From Marchantia polymorpha subsp. ruderalis (lineage: Eukaryota > Streptophyta > Marchantiopsida > Marchantiales > Marchantiaceae): DNA of 64,000 nt. Where the stretch lies: contig AP031355.1 in NCBI GenBank assembly GCA_037833965.1, forward strand, positions 11,433,501-11,497,500, written 5' to 3'. Of this stretch, positions 3,536 through 51,940 are shown piece after piece. A program made the translations under genes and the position numbers. Positions within the stretch are counted from its first letter, which is position 1. Every line of letters begins with the position of its first letter. The notes under the pieces are model-generated. The model saw only the letters and a list, made by a program, of their open reading frames with translations, was not told where the DNA came from and ran no database searches.

Positions 3536-3804
3536 GAAAGTAGCTCAGGTTGAGTCACTCATTGGAATCCAGAAGTAGATATTCATCTAGGAGTTGAGAC
3601 CCATACGTCACTTACTACGAACAATGATTGTGGGTCGAGTCAGGCCGTCATAGATTTCAAGCGGAGCGTACCTGACCATTTTTTGCATGCCTTGAATTTG
3701 TTCTCTTAGGCCCCATTGCAAACATGGCCTGCAATCGTTTTTCTCGAGAGTGAGGAACATAGCCCATGATATTTGCGCTTCTGGCCTGTCGAAGGACGGT
3801 ACTG

Positions 3805-3805
3805 C

Positions 3806-3837
<32 letters not shown>

Positions 3838-3847
3838 AGAGAGAGGG
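3805..3847. repeat. (GA)n microsatellite with GGGA units
   Basis: An uninterrupted GA run is followed by GGGAGGGAGAGAG. It makes the low-complexity RERERE and SLSLSL frames on the two strands, which are not genes. Confidence 0.95.
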
Positions 3848-6782
3848 GCAGGCGGGTTGCTAACACCCGAAGAAAGAGAAACTGGGCATATTTGGGAACC
3901 CCCACAAGTGCGTTTGGTTGGTTCGCCAAATTAGCAGAGCCTGGCGCTTTGGCTAGATGCTAACAGCGCCTTGCTTACTTTCGGGATAAACTAATACAAA
4001 ACTATATTAAAAATTACTGTGTCCAAGACGGTGGAGCTCAGCGGTTTGTAGTTCTATGCTCTGCACACACACCTCATTTAGAACACTTGTTTCAGGTCAA
4101 TCAAACCCTTTGCAAATGGAGCATGGTTGATGCATTCATTCATGCGGAGCATCTTCAGAGGTGTTGGAGTGACAGCAGGACTCGACGACGACATTCAATC
4201 TCAGGCCTGTGATTATTGCTCATGGTTAAGGCTGACACCTGTCTTGATTATGATCTGAACAGCACATGCCCAAACCTCGACATATATACTCTCAGTCAAT
4301 CAATCCCTCCCATCCTTGGACTCTCGGGTCTTGACCGAAATCTCCACTTCCGTGCACGTTGGATTCCGAGTTGCATGCTTTTAACACCCCCCCAGGAAAA
4401 TAGACGTTTTTGTGAGAGCTGGATGGCGAATCTTGCCACTAACATTGATTCCCCTTCTCTCCTCTGCTTTGCCATGGACGTAGTGCTCGGACTGTGGAGC
4501 CTTGAAATCTGGAAAGGTTACTGCGTTCGGAGTCAAGACTCAAACAAGATACGATATCGCGTGTGAATATTTGAGTAACTGAAGTCAAAGGACAGTTTTA
4601 GATCCGATGGTTGCACACGTGAAAATAGCCCGTAGTACTCCTGACAATTAAAGGTTTGCTTGGATGGACGGATCTGCTATGATTGCTTCTCCAGCCCGCA
4701 CAATTTTCTGTTTGTTTCTAGACTCCCTAATCGTCGATGTTGCGAATCCATTATTGCCATTGTGGCTTCCGACATTGCCTTCGAATTGTTTTCTATTTTG
4801 TTTTGTTGTTTTTTTATGTCCCTATACGGCTGCAATTATTCACATATACATCTTATACTGTCAAAAGTCATGATTCAAGAGACTGAACTTGCACATTGCA
4901 TCCATAGCTGCACATGTAGTTTGGAACGAACATTTATCCAGGGATTCTCGCATTTCATTTGTGAGAAGGCTTTGAGGACACCTGCAGGCATTTCCAAGAG
5001 TTGTCAACCCATCCAAAGATTTTGTAAACTACGAATCCCACTTGCAAGCGTAAACTTCTAATCATGATGCTTTCGAGAAGCTGCATGTGTATTCTGTTGT
5101 GCGTATTTCGTCTCTAAGACTATGCTCAGAAACGAATCGTTCGAATCTACATAAAATAGTAATTTTCCAAGGATCTGACACAAAAAGACTCTCAGGGGGC
5201 CAAATAGCTCTGATCTCAACCGTAGGTGCCAAAGACGAATGGAACAAAGCCCAAAAGAAAGCGTAAGAACATTCTCAAGCGATTCTCTATAACGAATCGC
5301 TTCATTCCATTTTAAGAGGGCAGAGGAGCGTGACGAAAGATTCCTTGGTTTGAGAGTTGAATTCACATCCATTTTCTTCGAGGGAAAAAAATGTAAACTA
5401 CCTCAAGTCGGAAGAACTAGATAATAAATAATTTATTCTACCTCTTAATAACGCATGCAAGCACTCGAAATCAAAAGATTTGATACCGTTCAAGTTGGTG
5501 GACGATTCTTCAACATCTGATTTGTTTTAAAAGAAATGAGGAATTAATGACCTTCGTCTCGGCTTCAGTAACATCATGAAGATCACGGATATGAGTAAAT
5601 CCCTCACTCACTCCTTGCAATTTGGTGGTACGATGTCCAAACCCCTTGTCGGAAGAGTGCTGAAAGGAAATTGAGACAAATCGAGTGGAAAGAAGAACAG
5701 GAAGGTTCTGGCAGTGGGATATTTTCACGCCTTTTCAAGCTGGTCAGGATGGGGCCAAATCCATGAGGGGGAAAACAAGTCGAAAGAATAGATGGCGCAC
5801 ATAAAGTAGAGATAAATAAACCGAGTCTCCAATGCTGTAACTACTGTCAGGAGGACGATCATGACTTGTGCTGAAGACAGAGATCGAGAAGAAACAACAA
5901 AAACACATAAAAAGAAAGAGCGTTGTTCGACAGGCGGGATCGGATTTGTTTATATCATCCATATCCGCAGCTTTTACGTCACAGGGAGGGAGGAGAAGCT
6001 TATTACCGACTATAAAATGTGTATAGTTTAAGCCACTTACAGCAATGAGCTGAAGCACAACTGGCAAACGTATCTGAGCCCATCCATGAAGCCCTCCCTT
6101 CTTGTAAGGACAAGCATGCACCGAATTTGAGGTGCTGATGTTGTAAATTATGGTTGGGAATATTTTTGGGGATGATTATGAAGGGAGCACTGGACTGGAC
6201 GATCGGGTGATCAGACGTTCGATGACGAAAATGATTTGGAACTCTCTCTTACTTGTAAGATCAAAATCCAGAGCGATGCAAGTAGAGTAGCCTCACCCAT
6301 CCTTTGTTCTCCTGCCTCTTGGAAGAACGAGCAATCATTAGAATCCAGTTAATGTGATCGAGACCGGATTCTTGTGAAGGATATGAGATCGGGACGAGCT
6401 TAAACAATCAGAAAAGTCGGATATGTGATCCTTTTTAACTCAACTGTCATGCTCGGTCAAGAGCAGGTCTTGACCCCGGCAGAAAACGTCTTCAATGTTG
6501 AATCCATCCGAGAATTTACATGATTCGACCATCATGGCCCTGTAAGAAAGAAGAGCATACACATGAGTACACTCTCCTCCCAGCCTTACAGATCACAACC
6601 ATTTAATGGCGTGCCCATGCACAGGCATTATTTACTGTCGACTGACTGTCGACCTGGGAAATGAGATTTGACCTCCTCTTCAAACTAGAAGAGACTCAAA
6701 AGGACGCTCGTCGATATTGAGTTGTTCTTAGACTAGGCTCTCAGGTGCTTGATTTCCGAAGATTTCATAGTCACAATGTCTC

Positions 6783-18500: not shown

Positions 18501-20194
18501 GTGGCTCTCTATGGGATGGTCACTTTTCTCTCCCCATTACCTGATCTGGAATCAGTAGTCAAACGCAACTTCGCAGCATACAAATCGGCTTATTTATTAC
18601 GAATCCAAGATTGCTCTGGAGCTCTTGATATCAGGCTGTATTTCAGTGATCAATGGTGAGAGACACAACAGGGTGCGTTTGTTCGTCTCTTTTCTTTCTC
18701 TCATACACGTCAGGATTCTGAATGCTATAACATGATTGCGTTTGCAGGTCAGCGGGAGAAATACACGTAGGTCAAATAGCTTTCGTCGGTGGCATCTTCA
18801 CAACAGTGAACTCCAATGGCGGGTGAGTATCACCTGTTGTGATTGATACTCTGGAGACCGAGAATCTTTTGTGCAGTTTTGGGTTCAATTGAGTCATAAC
18901 TAACTCGCTTACTTTTCCGAACCTCTGCTGCAATGATGGGAGGGTATGAATCATTGCTCTTCACATAAACTTTGCAACAGTCTCGGAACCCGAGAACGAA
19001 TGTTGATTACTTTCATTAAGAACAAAGTAAATGTGCTTTCCACTGTCCTTCAACTGTTGACGGCCTGACAGGGAACATGTAAACAGGATACTCAACATTG
19101 TACTGACGAAGTGCCACTGTCTGTCGTCTGATTGGTCACTTTAGAATGGACTGCACGTGGACCGAAAAGCAAGGAGGCGCGCTGGTTGTTAATATGACCC
19201 AGCTTCCGGCATTGTTGTCAACTGCTTGCCTCCACCGGATCGTTCCCCTGTCTAAGATATCTTCTTCTAGTTTAACAGTGCAAGTAAGAGCTCTCGTTCC
19301 CGATTGTACAGCCCCAAGTGAACGTGTAACACAGATATCAATGGGAATTGCCATCAATACCAGCAATGAGAATTCGTCCGTGTTCGAATTTGTTCTCTAG
19401 CTGGAAGTCTGTACATGCCCACATCACAACACTAATTAGTACCGTCACCAAGGTTTTTCCTGTAGGCTAACGTCAGTGCCAAAGCGTGCCAACTGTTCTC
19501 AGATCGGTACAGCAGTGCTCATAGTTCAACTTCTCCGTCTGAATCCAGGTATGCAGGGTGCAAATAAAGAATCTGGCACAGCATGGGGTGCAGGTGAAGT
19601 TCTGTCATATACCGTGTGGACACCCTGTAGTTGGGCTTCCAGTTCCTGGCAGGTGGAGTTGTAACTATTGCAGGCGAGCGTGTGAAACGAAGGAGACAGT
19701 GTTGACATTTTTTTCAACAGCTTTATTGGTGGACGTGTATCCGGGTCACCACACACAGGCTTATGCTTCGTGCTCGGGACGAGCTGCTGCGGAAGTGCTC
19801 CAGATTTCACCTGACGATTTCTGCTCTTGGTCCGAGGTATGCAAAGCAGGGAGGTTGTGTGCGAAAGTTGAAAGTCAGCCTCTGGACCTTGGAAGACAAG
19901 TTCTTCTTTCACGTGTATCTCTTTCCTTTGGTTGGGTGGTCGTCCAGAAGACTCTAACAAGACACACATATGAAGGCTCTGACGTACAAATTCGTGCATG
20001 TGCTGTTGCAGATCGAGCAAGGAATGTATTTGTACAGCCTCGAGAACGAAGAGTTTTTGGTCACTTTGTACTATGGTTTCCAAGAGGAGATGAACGCTTT
20101 ACAGTCCGCCGGTGGAGCCGGAAGTGCTACGCCCGCTCCGTGTTTAAAAATTGGACAAGCCATCAAGGCAGATCCTGGCAGAGGTGACGTCTAA
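15594..20194 (+). CDS. SHLD2/FAM35A-like protein: tandem OB folds with a C-terminal zinc-ribbon OB fold
   Basis: In animals SHLD2 is the single-strand-DNA-binding subunit of shieldin, which limits end resection at double-strand breaks. Exons read 15594-15812 (start MSADDVFVTFVESARR), 16572-16644, 16759-16990, about 17154-17354, 17578-17695, 17941-18087, 18199-18366, 18465-18655, 18748-18822, 19145-19283, about 19466-19548, about 19594-19836 and 20012-20194. OB1 includes LTLCDDNGVSLPLVLWNEQ. OB2 includes ALYGMVTFLS and SAYLLRIQDCSGALDIRLYF. The last OB has a four-Cys ribbon (CHIPCG then CNYC), then TALLVDVYPGHHTQAY and AAEVLQISPDDFCSW, which line up with human SHLD2 around PALMTIVDGRHD and LLNISPDCL. 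Three spots are uncertain: between 15813 and 16571; near 17069-17154, where a small exon may restore phase; and around 19466-19594. RPA1- or MEIOB-like proteins are the alternative, but the C-terminal pattern favours SHLD2. Confidence 0.72.
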
Positions 20195-21172: not shown

Positions 21173-24100
21173 TCAGAGAAGTCGAGGGGTGCTGGGCAGC
21201 TGGTCGCCGAGGTCCAAGTTCGATGAGCTCTCCTGGTGCATTAGCTTGAGAGTCAGCTCCCTTTCCGACTCAGGCTCCGAAGCTTGTGAAGTTTGCAGCC
21301 AACCTCCATTTAACATGCCGGGTTGTGTCGGATGTTCGAAGGAAATCGTGCGCTCATCTTGACCTGCGTCAGGGTCGTCAGCAGGGTCGTCCCGGTGAAT
21401 CTTCACTCTGTACCAGCAGTTGTTCATGTTCCCCTGAAGACGAAAGCCAATTGGTATGTGTGAGTACGAAATGCTAATACCTGTCACTCCCACACGCGAA
21501 AGCCCAAGCCCTCTCTGAAAAGTGTCCAACGTAAGACAGCGATGGAAGGTCATACCAGAAGGTTCCACGAAGAGTTTTCGGGCTGAGTGTTCATGGCCGA
21601 ATCCCAAGCCCTTACGACGATCTCCGAGCTCTCGACCAACTCCATCACATCGACTCTAGTCTCCCAAAAGCACCAGCTCCAGTACATTCCATGCTTTGTG
21701 GGTTGTGCGGGGTAGCCGACACTGCAAAATTTCCACGTCTTCCCTCCATCTAGTGACACCTCCACTCTCCCTATCTTCTTGCCAGTTCCTGCCAAACGAG
21801 CGCAGACAGTACAGGTCCGAGGTCACTATGACGTCATCAGGGCGACCACAAATCCCCTAAGTCAACAATGAACATGCTGAAGTTGGCGGTTCCGAGCACT
21901 GACACATTCAGAAGTTTCAGGCGGATTGGTCAGACTGATTGGATACCTGAATAAGCATAGCCGGTGATGGAGTAAGCGGCATCCTCGTTTGAAGGATCAA
22001 TCGTCAAAGTTTGAGAATGCGCAGGTGTACAGATGACGGAATTCACGTTCATTTCATTGATGACGAACTCCGGCCTGCTCATCCATCCTGGAACAAGGCA
22101 AGGGTGCATTCTGAATGGTCAGTCACGAACAGTCGACTCCGACAAGATACTCTGTCACCATCGCAGTCGCATCGACCACGTACACTACCTCCTCTCCTGA
22201 TCTCTACCATCTTTAACCAGCATCCAAGTATTTCAAGAGTCATCCCCTGGGAGTGGCTCTGGCACGTTTGGAGGTATGGAATTTGTCGAATTCGACGCAT
22301 CCAGCCCTCGCATGGCCACTGAGTCAACAGTTTCTGTCAACAGACGGATTTGTCAACGAAAGTCCCTGCCATACTCTCTCTCTCTCTCTCTCAAGGTAGA
22401 TGAGCGAGATTTCTCATGTGTCGAGCCCTCTGGCCATCCCACGAGCACACGCAGGCTTCAGGGCATGGACTGTTACAGTCATATAAATATCTTCTCCAAA
22501 TCACGTGTACGCTTACACAGATAGTATCGATTATTAGAGAGAGAAACGATGGTTGTGGCCGAGGTTCAAGCAGGGCAAGCCTCGAGGCGTAAAGCCTTGC
22601 CTGCTCAAATCTGCAATGGCTCTGCGCATCAGTGTAGGTCTGTCGATCTCAGCTGCCCAGCAGATATGTCAGTAGATAGTCATTTACCTACTCCATAGCC
22701 CAAAGCCCCAAGGATGAGTGAGGTCTTGATTGGGTTTTAATTGGGTCTTCCCATCCTTGTGGCTATCTTGTTTACTCCGTAACACAATGGGGCTCGTGAC
22801 ATTGCTCACGTACTGGCCAGCATACAAGGCCAGTCCAGGTCCTAACAAGTGCCAAGCATTCCATCGCTGCACGTTCCTCGACTCCTTTCTAATGTTGCAG
22901 ACGATGGCAATTTCTCGCAGGCGCTGAATTTCCAGGCTAGGCAGTGAGATTCAGGCCAGATAAATAAAGCACACCCTCAGTCCATTGTACACCAGGCGCA
23001 AGCATGCTCACCGTGAAAATCCCGTGCATTGCGTTCATCAACCGAAATCGAATTGTTCTTAATAACGCACCCGAATCCAGCCTCCAGCAGATCCACCATT
23101 TTATCATGGAAGTGATTTCCTCTTCTGATGCCAGGCACTGGGGGAGTTCGAATTCCCCCGTTCCGTTTCGCTAGAGGAAAATGAACTAGCCCTGTCGGAG
23201 GAGGATCTATGGCGGCGAGATCATAATTTCACCAGATTGGCACCTCATAAGCATCAATCAATTACATTTCCGAGCGCGCTTGGAACGTGAACTAACCAGA
23301 CAGCGAATTGAATTGATGGCCGACTCGGGCCGTGATCGAGTGACAGAATCGATCGATGGAGGGAAATCAAGAGCGTACCTTCAGAAATCGCGGTGTCTAA
23401 ATCTTGGACTTGAGAGGGCAGCATTCGATTGTCATGAAGATGGTAATAGCTGTCGGACTGCTCGGCGCTGATCTCGATCTTGTTCAACCACTTGACCGAG
23501 CGGCCGCCGGTGAAGCCCGGAACGATGAGCCGAACGGGGAAGCCGTGATCGGGAGTCAACAAATCGCCGTTCTGCTCGTAGGCCAGCAAAACATCGCGCG
23601 ATTCGTCCATGGCCACCTCGAGCGGAATGCTGGTGCCATAGCTCGAGCTCGAAGGCGCGAGCTTGTCGGCGCCCGAGCAGCAGACGAAGTACTGCACGCC
23701 GCGCTTCTTGGGCATGAGCACGCCGCAGTGCTGCAGCACATCGCAGAGCCGGGCGCCGCCCCAGACCGAGGTGCTGACGGCGCCGGGCCCCCACTTGAGC
23801 CCCAAGCTCTTGCCGCCCTTGCTGAGCTCCTTGCTGCGATTGCCCGAGCACATGAGCGTGACGGGCAATCGGCGCGACGGGAAGCACAGCAGATCGCGCA
23901 TGGTGAATTTCTTGGGCTTCGTCATGAGCCCCGTGATCTCGATGGTCCAGCTCTCCCAGCCGGCCTGCGGCACGGCGCCATGGTTGCGCACGAAGTGCAG
24001 CGAGGTGGGCGTCAAGAACCCGAAGTGCATCAGCGTGCTCAGCGGCGGCTCGCCATTGAAAGGATGAAATCCCTTGATTCGAATTAGGTCCGGGTGCCGG

Positions 24101-24681
24101 GGCACCCATTTGTCGTCCGTCGCCAGATCTCTGCGGTCGAGCCCTAAACCGCTCACTTTGGGAGGAAATTGCCATAGCTCCTCCTCCTCCTCGAAATCGC
24201 GCGAGGTCGAGATGATTTCGCCGCGCTGCAGCCCGACCTCGCCATTGGAGTCCTCGTCCGCCTCGCGCCCATCGACCGCCGGCTCGCGCAGCATCACGGG
24301 CCCGTCGTAGTCCCTGTACTCGGCGCTGCTGCTGAAGGTCTCGTCCGCAGCAATGTGCTGGCCATTGAACGACGACGCCCTGGCGTCCGTGCTGCCGCTC
24401 AGGGCCGACGACGGCCTGCGCGGCGAGTCCGTCTCGCTGATGCTGAAATGCTCGGGCGGCGGTGCGTACCGCGGCGTCTTCTCCTTGTAGCCGGAGATGG
24501 CACTGAACAGCAGAATCGAATCGCTGTCGCCTCCATTGCTGTGGCCATTGGAGTTGTCTAAGACTTGGGCCGAGGGCGACTCGCTCTTCTGAAACGAGGT
24601 CTTGACTCGCAGGTTCTCCTTGATCGTACTCAGCGTCGCTAACCTTCCCAGCGAGAGTGTCTTGCTTTTCTGAAATTTCAT
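21173..24681 (-). CDS. Nitrate reductase homologue with Mo-cofactor and dimerisation domains only (no heme, no FAD domain)
   Basis: Four exons (24681-23379, 22087-21947, 21788-21556, 21433-21173) join in phase to give 645 residues. Residues 1-190 are a polar Ser- and acid-rich extension with an EEEEE tract near 164-168. The sulfite-oxidase/nitrate-reductase Mo-pterin fold runs from about 200, with GFHPFNGEPPL, LHFVRNHG (Arg232, His234), the Mo ligand Cys278 in VTLMCSGNR, AVSTSVW and SPDHGFPVR-like TPDHGFPVRLIVPGF. The dimerisation domain has PEFVINEMNVNSVICTPAH, VEVSLDGGKTWKFC, YWSWCFWE, RAWDSAMNTQPE, NMNNCWYRVK and FEHPTQPG. All three introns sit where plant NIA introns sit, so it derives from a NIA gene. 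It stops about 40 residues after the dimerisation domain. The 979 bases to the neighbouring gene hold no cytochrome b5 (no HPGG) or FAD/NAD(P)H frame. It may act with a separate electron donor, or on another substrate. Confidence 0.9.
22088..23378 (-). other. First intron of the nitrate reductase homologue (1291 bp)
   Basis: It is bounded by GT at 23378-23377 and AG at 22089-22088 on the - strand and splits the Gly codon of SEG|WMSRPEF. It is much longer than introns 2 and 3 and contains a TC microsatellite at 22376-22392. I see no coding sequence in it on either strand. Confidence 0.85.
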
Positions 24682-41050: not shown

Positions 41051-43738
41051 GGTGATAGATCTTGCAACTAAGCCTTGCCTTCATTATGGGAGCTCTACAA
41101 ATCTTAAATGGATCTCCATTGAACATGCTGCAGGGCCTTGTGTTTCGCAATGGATGGAAATTCTGCCTCAAGGTCCATGCTTCTCTCAAACAAATTTGTA
41201 GTGTTCATTAAAAGTCAAAAGCAGCTATTTCTTCTTCACAAGAAGTGGTGAATCCAGACGTAATCCAGGACATAATCCGCTGCTTCTACTTCAACACAAG
41301 GAGTGGCAAAGCCAAACATCTCTAGCGTATATGTCTGCATGTCTGAAACCTAAGCTAGTGATCCTGGATTAAAATTGCCGTGTGTGGTCCGCCATCACTT
41401 GTCAAATCAGTCTTCAAAGCCTACTCTGTACTAAATTATTACAGTTGTTGTTTGGGATACTCCATACTCCATTTCCTCTTGCATCTGAATTTGAATTGTA
41501 CAGATATTTCGTTGAAACCCATGCCCTATAAATCTCAACTTGGATAAAACCTAGCACTTTTTTGGTAGGCTTTCTGCATCAGGAGCCACATACTTGCACA
41601 CAAGCTCTGGAACATTACCCACATTTACTCAATTCCTGTTTCCACGTAATAATCTCGCACCTGAGGCAAACGCTCTTTGCCGCATCCTTCCATCTACCTA
41701 AGAGCTCTCCCAATTTCCTATGGTGCTCTTAAGCTCTCGCAATGAAAGAATTCCCGACTCTGTATTCTGAAGAAATGCATTTCGCTCGTCATTGTTTCTC
41801 ACTGTGGGCGTTGTCATCTCCTTTTTTATGCGCGACGGCTATATTCGTTAGGATCTAGGAATGAATACTATACAGGAATGGTGCGGTTCTCTCTCTGGCT
41901 CGATGTACTGTGCATGAGTATAGCCCAAAAAATCTGAGCGGGAAAACATTAAACCCATACGGCTTGAGTTTCTTGAACTTCACTCAAGTCGTATATAAAC
42001 CTTGTTTCGAAGAAGGAGGGTATCTTTGCGCTTGGGGCAATGACGCAGTTAGTGAGGTGAAACCGAGACGCGTCAATTGCTGGTTGAAAACTATTTCCAA
42101 ACCCCCGCCCGTGCCCTAACCGGCGCGTGCGAATTTCTGGAAGATCCGACTTTGTCTGGATCTCACAATGAAATCAAAACTGAACTGTTGGCAATTCTTC
42201 TCGCACGGGTAGTGTTATCTGTGTTGGTGAGATGAAGCAGGTTACTTCTCTACTGGATCCTTCGTGAGATGGTCTCATGACATGACAGGTCTAAGGACGA
42301 ACGAGATGATTCACACCGGGCCTATGGAATTGGATGGATTTGATTCTACGACACGAAGATTACTGCAAACGAGAACTGATTTGATTCATGCGGCTGGATT
42401 GTGTTGTTATGCATCACTATCCTTGGTCTTTGCTGTCACATGCCGTGAGTTGAATGTTAACTGGGAAGTACTTCACTCTAGTCGCTCATACACAGATTGG
42501 CATGTGTCGGTCATATATCGGTCGACTGAGTGATTCGCACATTCTAGAAGTTAAGTTAGGCCATACCGGTGTTCTCGACGACGGAAGAGTGTAAATATCC
42601 CAACCAAGCTAGCATTAGATCGCATTGCCGTCAGTATCCTCTAAATGACCGGAAAGAGAATCCCTAGATCTGTGTTTTTGAAACTATTGTGTACAGAATA
42701 TAACGAAGTAATGATCATCCGATGGATATAATTTTTCGAAGAGAAGAGTACACTATATATACCGCGAAGGTTTATAAAAACTCTAATACTAGAATATTCT
42801 GGTTTTGAAGCCGAGTTTCTCTTCGGTCCCAGGATTGAATTGAAGACAGGTGATGACACTCATCTTCAGCTGAGGTTCTGAAGAGGAATACCGTTCATGT
42901 GTTGTGGAGTCTGGAAGTTGTCTTTTTTCAGTATAACATCCATATCCTCATCGTTAGGATCAGGGACCTCGAGCTCATTTCTTCTCACGGACTAGGGCTA
43001 TGTGCTTTGAGTATCCTCCCGGTGAATAATCATACGGCCTGTTCATGGACTCTTCTAAGCTCTCGGTAGATATCAATCGCTCTAGGTATCCGGTGAACAT
43101 AACATTAGGGAGGAACCTAATTAACCACAATAGAGAAACAACCTTGCCTGAAGTTCTTGTGAGATAAGCTCAATCTCTTCTGGTTTTAAGACTGTCACAA
43201 AAGTCACTTCATCAAAACAATCAAGCGGTAAGATGGGTCTGAGAGCATGGTTCAGCTCTGGTGTGTACATTATGTAGCACACTATCTAGACATGGCATTC
43301 ATCGGTGATATTTTAAATGTAGATAGTTGGAGTGAATGAGAACAAAATATTTCATTACATTATATTTTATAACCTACATAATCATCATGACACAAATTCG
43401 GCCACAAAGCACACCGTTTGACCTAGATATTACATCTGGTAACATGTATTTATCATTATGATGCTATTGGTTCTATCCACATAAGACTTGATGGAAGATT
43501 TTCATCAGTGCTGCTGAAGCAGTTTTTTTTGAAAAAGATATCGATGGCAGGCCAAATTATTGCAACTCGCGCTTCTCCGAGGCCGGACCAACTGGTAACA
43601 CCAAGCAAATGGTATCACAGGGTGGTGGGTTCAGATTGACTAAAAGTTCCTAGAACATGTAAATAAGAAGAGTGTAGTACACGGTAGGTTGCATCCGCCA
43701 CTTCACAGACCGTAAACCAAAGGACTCGAGATGTGGAC
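41050..43738. other. Gene-free stretch between the AT-rich block and the tRNA
   Basis: Mixed composition. The open frames at 41910-42119 and 42264-42533 are short and match no family. A TATAAA-like motif lies at 41993 without a convincing gene after it. Confidence 0.5.
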
Positions 43739-43778: not shown

Positions 43779-43851
43779 TTCCGTTGCCGGGGCGTGAACC
43801 CGGGTCGCTCGGGTGAGAGCCGAGTATCCTAACCAACTAGACTACAACGGA
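43779..43851 (-). tRNA. tRNA-Glu (CTC), possibly degenerate in the T loop
   Basis: The - strand folds into a full cloverleaf. The acceptor stem is TCCGTTG/CAACGGA with discriminator A. The D arm starts TAGTCTAGTTGG, the anticodon stem CTCGG/CCGAG carries loop CTCTCAC (anticodon CTC), and the T stem is CCGGG/CCCGG. No intron. It matches the plant nuclear tRNA-Glu(CTC), as I remember it, nearly throughout. The T loop reads TTCACGC where TTCAAGT is expected, so the almost invariant A58 is C, which also changes the B box. No TTTT terminator follows closely on the - strand. It may be a functional variant or a young pseudogene. Confidence 0.88.
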
Positions 43852-48984: not shown

Positions 48985-50568
48985 TCAACGCTGTTTGTGA
49001 ATAGGGTTCTCTGGTTCGAATTGAACAGGCATAGAAACCTCTGTATGTTCAATTGTGACTAGGGAAGTTTCACCCATTCCGGCGTTAGGAACAATAATCT
49101 GCAGACCTCCACTGTCAGCAACAAAGGCTTCGACATCGATGTCCTTCACACTCAGTGCAACCAGGTAGGCTGAGAAGCACCCCAAAGTAAGTAGCGCCCA
49201 ATTGACAATGAGCTGCACGAGGAACGAAACACGATTGGCGTCAATTTGATACGCTGATGCAGCTCCAGCATTCTGGACAGCCTTGTAAAACCCCACGAAC
49301 CTGGCCGCCTCGCGAGTGTCATTCGTGAGAGCTCCCATGATCCAGTAACTGTAAGTTTGCCAGAACGCATCGAAAAGGCCATACAGAGCAAAGAGAGTAA
49401 CGGGACCAGCGAATTCACTGCTATCCTCGAAGTCCATCTTGTCAGTCTCGGCCTTGGCAGAAGATCTAGTAAATGTGAGTTGAAATCCCAGACCCCCTCC
49501 CCAGATGACACTGGAAACGATCAGAAGGAGGGTCAGGCCCAGAAGACCTCGAACCCTCCTGCTCGTGCTCACAAATCTGCTCGAGTCCAGAAAGTGGCCC
49601 ATGAGCATGGAGCCCAGAATCTGCGCTGTCCAGTACAGAGTGCCATTGAAAGCCCTGGTTCGAGTGGTGAAAAGCCCACCTCCATTGACGGCGTTGAACT
49701 GGTAGGTGTAGAACCAGTTGGACGCCAGGAACATGGGAGACAGGGCAATCATGCGCCAGTCGAGGAAGAGTTTGGCCACTGCCACAGCTTCGCTCGTCCA
49801 AGACGAGTATCGGTGTATGGCCACTGGCTTTCCATCGCTCCGGATGACCATCTCTGGCGGCAGCAGCGCCAGTGATAGAATCGAACCGAGCACCATCACA
49901 ACCATGAAAGCTATGTAGGTCTGGATCGATACAGAGGATTTGCCGCTGTTCCACTCGATGATAAGAGGGATGAGCGAGCCCAGAACAGCGCCCGTGTTGA
50001 ATATGCTCCAGAACATGCTGATGAACTTTCCCTTGTTGTCCTCCTCTGGGTAGGAAACCATTATGGCGCCCTGAGCTGCCCAGAGAAATCCTGCCCCGAC
50101 TCCGAGCACAGCTCCTGCTGTGATGACAAACGCAGGATTGTACGATAAGTAGGAACCGACATAGAGTGCATAAGTCAGGCCTCCGACGAGGAGAAGAACT
50201 CGGTGGCCGACGATGTTGAACATGGCGCCTGCTAGAAGAGAACATATGGCAAAGCTGACGGACAGAGCCGTGAGAGCATTGTCGGCGATGGTGGCGTCTG
50301 CTTTGCCTGCAGCTCCGAGCCCGTTCAGGGCGCTGAACATGCCCGGCAGGCAGAAGCACACGAGGCCCAACCCCGCCACTTGCACCAGAGGACTGTTGTA
50401 TCTCCAGTTCGAGAGCTTCGGCACTTCGCCATCAGGACCTACGGCAGGATGGCTTGGACCTTGGCCTGCTTCCATCGACTGCAAATTTCTGAATCGTGAA
50501 ATTTCTAACAAACTCGATTGCAAACTCGTGAGTTCGAGTGATGTTCGTTTCATGTACCCTCGAGGCAT
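48985..50568 (-). CDS. UNC93-like protein, MFS-type membrane transporter
   Basis: A multi-pass membrane protein of the UNC93-like group of the major facilitator superfamily, most like the Arabidopsis UNC93-like proteins 1 and 2 and their fungal relatives. A single uninterrupted frame of 527 codons; the second Met (codon 32, 50475) begins MEAGQGPSHP and may be the true start, because family similarity begins at YNSPLVQVAGLGLVCFCLPG. About eleven to twelve hydrophobic segments follow. Family marks include GMFSALNGLG, GVGAGFLWAAQGAIMVSYP, GKFISMFWSIFNTGAVLGS, LASNWFYTYQFNAVNGG, SSEFAGPVTLFALYGLFDA and FVGFYKAVQNAGAASAYQID. The C-terminal 60 residues are an acidic tail. Its substrate is unknown; UNC-93 proteins have been linked to potassium homeostasis. 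No intron is present. Confidence 0.94.
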   Translation of the reverse strand: MPRGYMKRTSLELTSLQSSLLEISRFRNLQSMEAGQGPSHPAVGPDGEVPKLSNWRYNSPLVQVAGLGLVCFCLPGMFSALNGLGAAGKADATIADNALTALSVSFAICSLLAGAMFNIVGHRVLLLVGGLTYALYVGSYLSYNPAFVITAGAVLGVGAGFLWAAQGAIMVSYPEEDNKGKFISMFWSIFNTGAVLGSLIPLIIEWNSGKSSVSIQTYIAFMVVMVLGSILSLALLPPEMVIRSDGKPVAIHRYSSWTSEAVAVAKLFLDWRMIALSPMFLASNWFYTYQFNAVNGGGLFTTRTRAFNGTLYWTAQILGSMLMGHFLDSSRFVSTSRRVRGLLGLTLLLIVSSVIWGGGLGFQLTFTRSSAKAETDKMDFEDSSEFAGPVTLFALYGLFDAFWQTYSYWIMGALTNDTREAARFVGFYKAVQNAGAASAYQIDANRVSFLVQLIVNWALLTLGCFSAYLVALSVKDIDVEAFVADSGGLQIIVPNAGMGETSLVTIEHTEVSMPVQFEPENPIHKQR

Positions 50569-51940
50569 GAGCAGGTGTACTCAAGTGCCATAAGGCTTGT
50601 AATCATCAAATTCAATCATCTCAAGCTGCGGGCTGTTTTGACTTTGAGAGATTGACTGATTGGAGAAATGCAAGGTTGACATGGGGGAGATCGTGGAAGG
50701 CTAAGCACGATGAAGATTTCGTTCGGGTGATGTGAACCATGACACCGAACTGTCGAGGAGGGAGTGCAGTTTATGGATACCAATGAACAGAAACGTGTGA
50801 GCAGTCCTGAAGAGCCAAACCGAAATTATTGTATCTACATGGAAGGAACAGCTCGAGGATCACAAGCACAATCACATCGTGATGGATTACAGACGGGAAT
50901 CATCGTCACCAATTCCTTTGCAATCATTAATCATGGGAGTCATCATGACTCAGGTGGCAGAAGTTCTGAGGAACTTTCGTCATTCTTCAATAACGAAATT
51001 AATTGTAAGGAGGTCTTGTTACAAGTTTCGATCTGTCTTGAACCCGTCGGATCGTGCTGTCCAAAATTTCCACATCAAAGTGAGAAGTGAATCTCAACGA
51101 TTGAAGATACCTTCAGAAGTGAGTTTAGTGAAATTTGGAATTTCGGTAGAATTTCTGGCTTGATCTCGAAAACTTTCTAGCCTATGTGGGGCTTCTTCAG
51201 GACAGATTCCAGAATCCGGCGCATTCTAATAAACAGCCGATCTGCTTTGATGGTCTGTCTCGTTTCTGTTCAACTTCGCCTAACTACCAAAGTCTTGCAG
51301 CTAGAGAACTTATCTATCCCAATGCTGAAGTGATTGCCAATTGCGTGCGGCTCCAGAAACTTCCAAGACTCTTCTGACTTTGTATAATCCTAGACTTACG
51401 GACTCTCAGGCATTCACTGAGGATCGAACTCGGATTTCGTTAACACGATTCTGATAAGTTTTAGAAATTCGACAAAGATGTTTCGGACACTTTTTTGACA
51501 TCTTGATTTGAAAGCGTAGCTGCCCTTGAGATCTTACATGTATGTCTGCAGCTCCGAGGTAAAACAGGCTCCGGTGAAACCTTTGTACTGATACATTACA
51601 CACGATAAGGTTCTACATATCGACTCTTGCCATACACTTCCAGAATCTCATCGCCCGTAACTTGGTTTGGCCTGACGATGGACTATAGCCTGTCTATTAC
51701 AAACCAGTCCCTTATGCTCACTGGGACAAATGGGCATTAGGCAGACCAATAATAGTGACTACAGCAATGGTTACCTCCGCTTGCCATCGCAGGGACTGAA
51801 TTTGTGAACTCCATCTCAACACGGTCCGACAAGAACCATGTCTGGGAAGATTATGAATATCAAATCAAAGCAAATTTATTCAAACAGAAACTCCCCCTTC
51901 GGTAGGGCTGGAAGTTAAGCTCTACGTTACAGGAAATTGA
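50569..51940. other. Gene-free stretch upstream of the UNC93-like gene
   Basis: It presumably contains the - strand promoter. Frames at 50764-51163 are short and unrecognised. Nothing else is visible. Confidence 0.5.

Follow-up and report, generated by a model that had tools for sequence, protein, structure and literature searches.

A putative molybdenum-only member of the nitrate reductase family with an altered active-site loop in Marchantia polymorpha

The literature credits eukaryotes with five molybdenum (Mo) enzymes (PMC10574614, PMC10385300). The full architecture of eukaryotic nitrate reductase (NIA/EUKNR) is given as Mo, dimerization, cytochrome b5, FAD, and NAD domains (PMC6400420), and the nitrate reductases (NRs) of Arabidopsis are reported as NIA1 and NIA2 (PMC12917456). 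Plant sulfite oxidase (SO) is described as heme-free and as using O2 as its acceptor, and removal of the heme domain is reported to let mouse and human SO use O2 as well (PMC10574614). Electrons may also be shared between proteins: Chlamydomonas NR is described as feeding the Mo enzyme ARC/NOFNiR (PMC6473468), fragments of NR are reported to be active when mixed, and a Mo-domain fragment of NIA1 to reduce nitrite with benzyl viologen (PMC6473903). None of the titles and abstract openings returned by our literature search describes a Mo-only NIA paralog in a plant. The locus studied here, from Marchantia polymorpha subsp. ruderalis, appears to encode such a protein.

The window is the 64,000-nucleotide stretch C6:11433501-11497500, and the genome searched comprises 241 Mb in nine contigs. 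On the minus strand of the window lies a four-exon gene that begins with an ATG at 24681, ends with a TGA at 21173, and, in our splice model, encodes a stop-free protein of 645 amino acids; the interval 21173..24681 reported in an earlier note on this DNA is exactly this coding sequence. Exon 1 (23379..24681; delimited by the splice model, Pfam, and AF2) encodes the Mo-binding domain, preceded by an N-terminal part of ~184 residues that includes the acidic stretch FEEEEEL. The dimerization domain starts in exon 2 (21947..22087), continues through exon 3 (21556..21788), and ends in exon 4 (21173..21433) with FEHPTQPG...GGW, after which come a 41-residue tail and the stop. All splice sites of this model are canonical GT-AG. 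Fourteen splice combinations keep the frame and the landmark peptides, but only four use GT donors throughout, and the remaining three of these require an alternative first donor at 23345. Plus-strand frames that converge on the gene terminate at 20187 and 20194, counting the stop codon, and one of them (19543-20187) matches CDC24 OB-fold 3 (E 1.6e-13, residues 12-98). Elsewhere in the window are a U4 spliceosomal RNA gene (42022-42161, plus strand; Rfam 104.8 bits, model positions 1-138 of 138), a tRNA-Glu (CTC) gene called by ARAGORN at 43779-43851 on the minus strand, where Rfam also calls a tRNA, and a 531-amino-acid open frame (48988-50580, minus strand) that matches both UNC-93 (E 4.3e-21) and MFS_1.

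The domain content of the gene is simple. Pfam was scanned with open frames, not the spliced protein, as the query, and above the cut-off it found solely Oxidored_molyb, complete in exon 1 (1-169/169, E 2.5e-55), and Mo-co_dimer, with E 1.9e-9 in exon 2 and E 3.2e-27 in exon 3; exon 4 gave a Mo-co_dimer match below the cut-off (E 0.05), and neither MOSC_N nor MOSC was matched in the exon frames. The dimerization domain is thus kept, as the earlier note had claimed, and the gene does end soon after it: 41 residues follow the last GGW, versus 412 in the full-length NIA on contig C3 (C3 NIA). The tail stops inside the hinge 1 region of full-length NR, where the KSSSTP hinge motif of C3 NIA is not kept, although PSTP is present at the C terminus. 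When the heme and FAD half of C3 NIA (374 amino acids) was compared by tblastn with the whole window, the best E value was 1.0, and the search yielded no remnant of a cytochrome b5 or FAD domain. Together with the Pfam result, this supports the earlier description of a protein with no heme and no flavin domain. Exon searches of the genome score the best candidates only, so that their counts are lower bounds; they returned at least two FAD_binding_6 matches, on C3 and C9 with none on C6, and at least 15 Cyt-b5 matches, of which the sole one on C6 lies ~97 kb upstream of the Mo-only gene. Splicing to distant b5 or FAD exons is unlikely, given that none was found in the window and that the single C6 b5 exon among the best candidates is upstream. 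The protein does not have the full EUKNR architecture, differing from it by the absence of the cytochrome b5, FAD, and NADH domains, and its Mo-only Pfam architecture is that of plant SO.

Matches to PF00174 (at least five) and PF03404 (at least six) fall at three loci, namely the Mo-only gene, C3:11.77 Mb, and C4:17.29 Mb, and the 645-amino-acid protein used as a genome query gave at least nine matches at the same three. The search for a full-length NIA in this genome, which had been proposed as a check, succeeded: the C3 gene encodes a complete nitrate reductase of 1,005 amino acids in five exons, to which the Mo half of the window protein is 53% identical. The three introns of the Mo-only gene (22088..23378, 21789..21946, and 21434..21555; phases 1, 1, and 0) match introns of C3 NIA in position and phase, in agreement with the claim that NIA intron positions are kept, whereas an additional upstream phase-2 intron, the first of C3 NIA, is missing. 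In C3 NIA itself (C3:11766501-11775500), a 135-base unit is repeated 2.9 times in tandem, with 86% matches, in the intron before the last exon (positions 3605-3996 of that interval), and the sequence near the C terminus is CGPQTLENT, where CGPPPMI is expected; the NADH-binding end of this enzyme may be unusual. The C4 gene, judged by its SO-type DYK and NLRG motifs and by joined exon peptides that match Arabidopsis SO best, is a plant-type sulfite oxidase, and by eye its exons read through all three places at which the Mo-only gene and C3 NIA share introns. MOSC_N (mARC) matches occur at one place on C4, with at least three exon matches.

We conclude that the protein belongs with the NRs, as the earlier note had proposed, and is distinct from SO. 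Its best solved relative is Pichia NR (2bih, E 3.5e-98), behind which the sulfite oxidases rank. A 20-row tree was built from the Mo-only protein, C3 NIA, AtNIA2 (a provisional sequence), Pichia NR, two SOs, and every fourth of 56 bacterial rows (14 in all). The four NR rows, the provisional one among them, form one group with 100/100 support, and a clade of the Mo-only protein with chicken SO and AtSO is rejected (p-AU 7.65e-62). With NIA/EUKNR it shares the Mo and dimerization domains, the residue Asn418, the three introns (those of C3 NIA), an acidic N-terminal stretch, and the FEHPT...GGW end. With plant SO (1ogp and the C4 gene) it shares Mo-only architecture and fold, but it differs in three of five sulfate ligands, is only 41% identical to 1ogp, and falls in a separate clade. 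An identity as a sulfite oxidase was rejected on this tree and on the absence of the equivalents of chicken SO Arg190, Tyr322, and Arg450.

The age of the gene is harder to establish. The trees place the Mo-only protein outside the Pichia and plant NRs (91/82 in 20 rows, 87/89 in six rows), while the AU test leaves a plant clade unrejected (p-AU 0.161 and 0.149). Identity is 53.3% between the window protein and C3 NIA, 53.0% between the window protein and the provisional AtNIA2, and 65.2% between C3 NIA and AtNIA2; sites shared against a Pichia-like state number 16 for C3 NIA with the provisional AtNIA2 and four for the window protein with either. Tajima counts (window to C3) are 47:39 with Pichia as the outgroup, 32:35 with chicken SO, and 84:34 with the provisional AtNIA2. 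The last of these means that the split is earlier or that the window gene evolves faster; because the 47:39 ratio differs from it (binomial p 0.0012), the earlier split is favored. Holding the window protein and C3 NIA together against the provisional AtNIA2 gave p-AU 0.083 (20 rows) and 0.042 (six rows); when the AtNIA2 row was left out, a grouping of the two against Pichia was not rejected (p-AU 0.428). As the dating tests need the provisional row, without it the date is not addressable. These comparisons weakly suggest that the duplication may predate the liverwort-angiosperm split, and a faster-evolving younger copy is less favored. A more radical reading is that the gene is not a truncated NIA but descends from a Mo-only stage of the NR lineage, before or beside the fusion with b5 and NADH reductase. 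This draws on the tree position outside the Pichia and plant NRs, the lack of a rate excess over C3 NIA with Pichia as the outgroup (47:39), and the absence of any heme or FAD trace in the window. The three introns in common with C3 NIA argue against it, unless those introns are that old, a plant clade is not rejected, and we regard it as very unlikely; if true, plants would have one more molybdoenzyme, with a substrate of its own.

The striking feature of the active site, which the earlier note did not mention, is the loss of an arginine close to the Mo ligand. Cys278, Arg232, and His234, listed in the earlier note, are all present and align with chicken SO Cys185, Arg138, and His140, and the Mo ligand (codon 23848..23850, minus strand) is cysteine in 56/56 bacterial relatives. 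In chicken SO, the molybdopterin phosphate is reported to be bound by His283, Arg288, Lys301, and the Arg138 backbone (PMC5856855); in the alignment, all of these residues, with Cys185 and His140, are conserved in the Mo-only protein. The reported sulfate ligands are Arg138, Arg190, Trp204, Tyr322, and Arg450 (PMC5856855), and at these five sites the Mo-only protein has Arg, Ser, Trp, Asn, and Leu, and C3 NIA has Arg, Arg, Trp, Asn, and Met. Two of the five are therefore kept in the Mo-only protein (Arg138 and Trp204); the Asn is Asn418 (codon 23428..23430, minus strand), the NR-type residue where SO has Tyr322. The active-site loop is CSGNRS, not the CAGNRR that is normal and that NIA1 also has. 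The second Arg of CAGNRR, equivalent to chicken SO Arg190, is replaced by Ser283 (codon 23833..23835, minus strand) and the Ala after the Mo-Cys by Ser279, although the Arg and the Ala both occur in 56/56 aligned bacterial relatives and in all five reference sequences. These relatives are the bacterial frames of >300 amino acids that remained when two of 58 loci were dropped; across the 58, 56 read CAGNRR, one reads CAGNGR, and one is without the motif. One of the two scan patterns spans the Arg190 site and permits Arg or Ser, so the Arg result was not forced. Five other proteins, one of them a provisional sequence, agree at 67 columns when unknown AtSO residues are skipped; the Mo-only protein departs from them at four of these (A279S, R283S, V404I, and G483T), with A279S and R283S flanking the Mo ligand.

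Loss of the Arg190 equivalent disfavors plain nitrate or sulfite chemistry, and the substrate is probably less anionic. Among the substrates suggested previously, nitrite and sulfite are accordingly weakened, with two of five sulfate ligands kept, and N-hydroxylated or other less anionic compounds fit better. The earlier suggestion of a second nitrate or nitrite (NO-forming) reductase fed in trans can appeal to Asn418, to membership in the NR clade, to the nitrite reduction by the NIA1 Mo-domain fragment with benzyl viologen (PMC6473903), and to N296K, which, beside the conserved Trp297, could partly restore the lost charge and so keep an anionic substrate, offsetting R283S. It would nonetheless have to work without an Arg that is found in the 56 bacterial and five reference NR/SO rows, and we think it quite unlikely. 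The AF2 model of residues 184-434, made with 21 bacterial rows, has a pLDDT of 76.8 and a pTM of 0.80, but pLDDT is below 50 for residues 184-194, 281-297 (the altered loop), and 417-434 (which hold Asn418), so that the model gives no pocket geometry. The predicted fold is as expected for the SO/NR family: in Foldseek against the PDB, sulfite oxidases and Pichia NR occupy ranks 1-18 (TMq 0.73-0.81), followed by bacterial sulfite dehydrogenases and the oxidoreductase 1xdq/1xdy.

A heme-free protein of this architecture might also be an oxidase that passes substrate electrons to O2, as plant SO does, with no protein partner. O2 is a possible acceptor because heme-free SOs use it, the heme-less forms of mouse and human SO among them (PMC10574614), and some loop residues (Leu295, WGGARL) are SO-like. 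Such an enzyme would, however, lack the SO pocket residues Arg190, Tyr322, and Arg450; its grouping with SO is rejected (p-AU 7.65e-62); C4 already carries a plant-type SO; and, by eye and against the usual consensus, no peroxisomal PTS1 or PTS2 signal is recognizable (the C terminus is RLL). We consider this alternative unlikely, although it modifies one earlier claim, that a Mo-only paralog must receive electrons from another protein: another molecule must supply or take up the electrons, but it need not be a protein if O2 is the acceptor.

The gene appears to have been preserved for a long time. In 415 codons aligned to C3 NIA, differences at positions 1, 2, and 3 are 0.345, 0.251, and 0.569, and NG86 gives dN 0.37 and dS 2.26 (near saturation), with 74/112 fourfold sites differing; this pairwise dN/dS cannot assign constraint to either branch. 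The intact frame and the near-saturated synonymous divergence indicate long-held coding constraint, and with the conserved protein they led us to reject a recent pseudogene. A recently truncated or dying gene, or an assembly or annotation artifact, is suggested by the restriction of the analysis to a single genome; against it stand, besides these divergence values, the intact splice sites and the absence from the window of any remnant of the lost half, and we regard it as extremely improbable. The first 20 residues (24622-24681, minus strand) have a net charge of +4 with no acidic residue, compared to -2 in C3 NIA, and the best helical moment of the first 62 residues was matched by 979/2000 shuffles. 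The N terminus is basic, unlike that of C3 NIA, and re-targeting, perhaps to an organelle, is possible, although the helical moment is no better than that of shuffled sequences.

With about even confidence, we infer from these sequence features a selectively maintained and functional Mo-only member of NIA/EUKNR with a changed substrate, supplied with electrons in trans. The protein probably has a substrate different from nitrate and a separate partner with which it exchanges electrons. It would work as a homodimer, or as a heterodimer with C3 NIA, and would catalyze the two-electron transfer of an oxygen atom at Mo with a less anionic substrate, for example an N-oxygenated or S-oxygenated compound. 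The most likely sources of reducing equivalents, supplied in trans, would be cytochrome b5 together with its reductase, or the heme of full-length NIA. Candidate donors in the genome are the Cyt-b5 loci, the FAD_binding_6 locus on C9, which we take to resemble cytochrome b5 reductase, and C3 NIA. A regulatory or weakened paralog that dimerizes, perhaps binds the Mo cofactor (Moco), and catalyzes poorly, pairing with C3 NIA or holding Moco, would explain the retained dimerization domain, the lost invariant pocket Arg, and a hinge without the C3 KSSSTP motif, though with PSTP at the C terminus. However, the Mo ligand and the cofactor-phosphate contacts are conserved, which a noncatalytic protein would not obviously need, and this role seems rather unlikely as well.

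The reading that we favor, a functional enzyme fed in trans, has several partial parallels. In mARC/NOFNiR, a Mo-only enzyme is likewise described as being fed by cytochrome b5 and its reductase or by NR (PMC6473468), but there the domains are MOSC and here Oxidored_molyb, so that the likeness is one of analogy only. A fungal EUKNR paralog of uncertain function, compared here by its description, is also an NIA-family duplicate that perhaps does not reduce nitrate (PMC6400420). The fold is related to that of 1xdq/1xdy, at ~20% identity in the structure matches. These entries are presumably MsrP/YedY, a heme-free reductase fed by a separate heme protein, and the active-site motif of MsrP/YedY differs.

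As a heme-free enzyme of the NIA family with a remodeled pocket, this protein would add to the known plant molybdoenzymes. No Mo-only NIA paralog is known in Arabidopsis, and a duplication of the age hinted at by the comparisons would imply loss of the Mo-only copy in lineages such as this one. Because the species is amenable to transformation and gene knockout, the gene would allow a direct test of the old question of whether NR shares electrons with other Mo enzymes.
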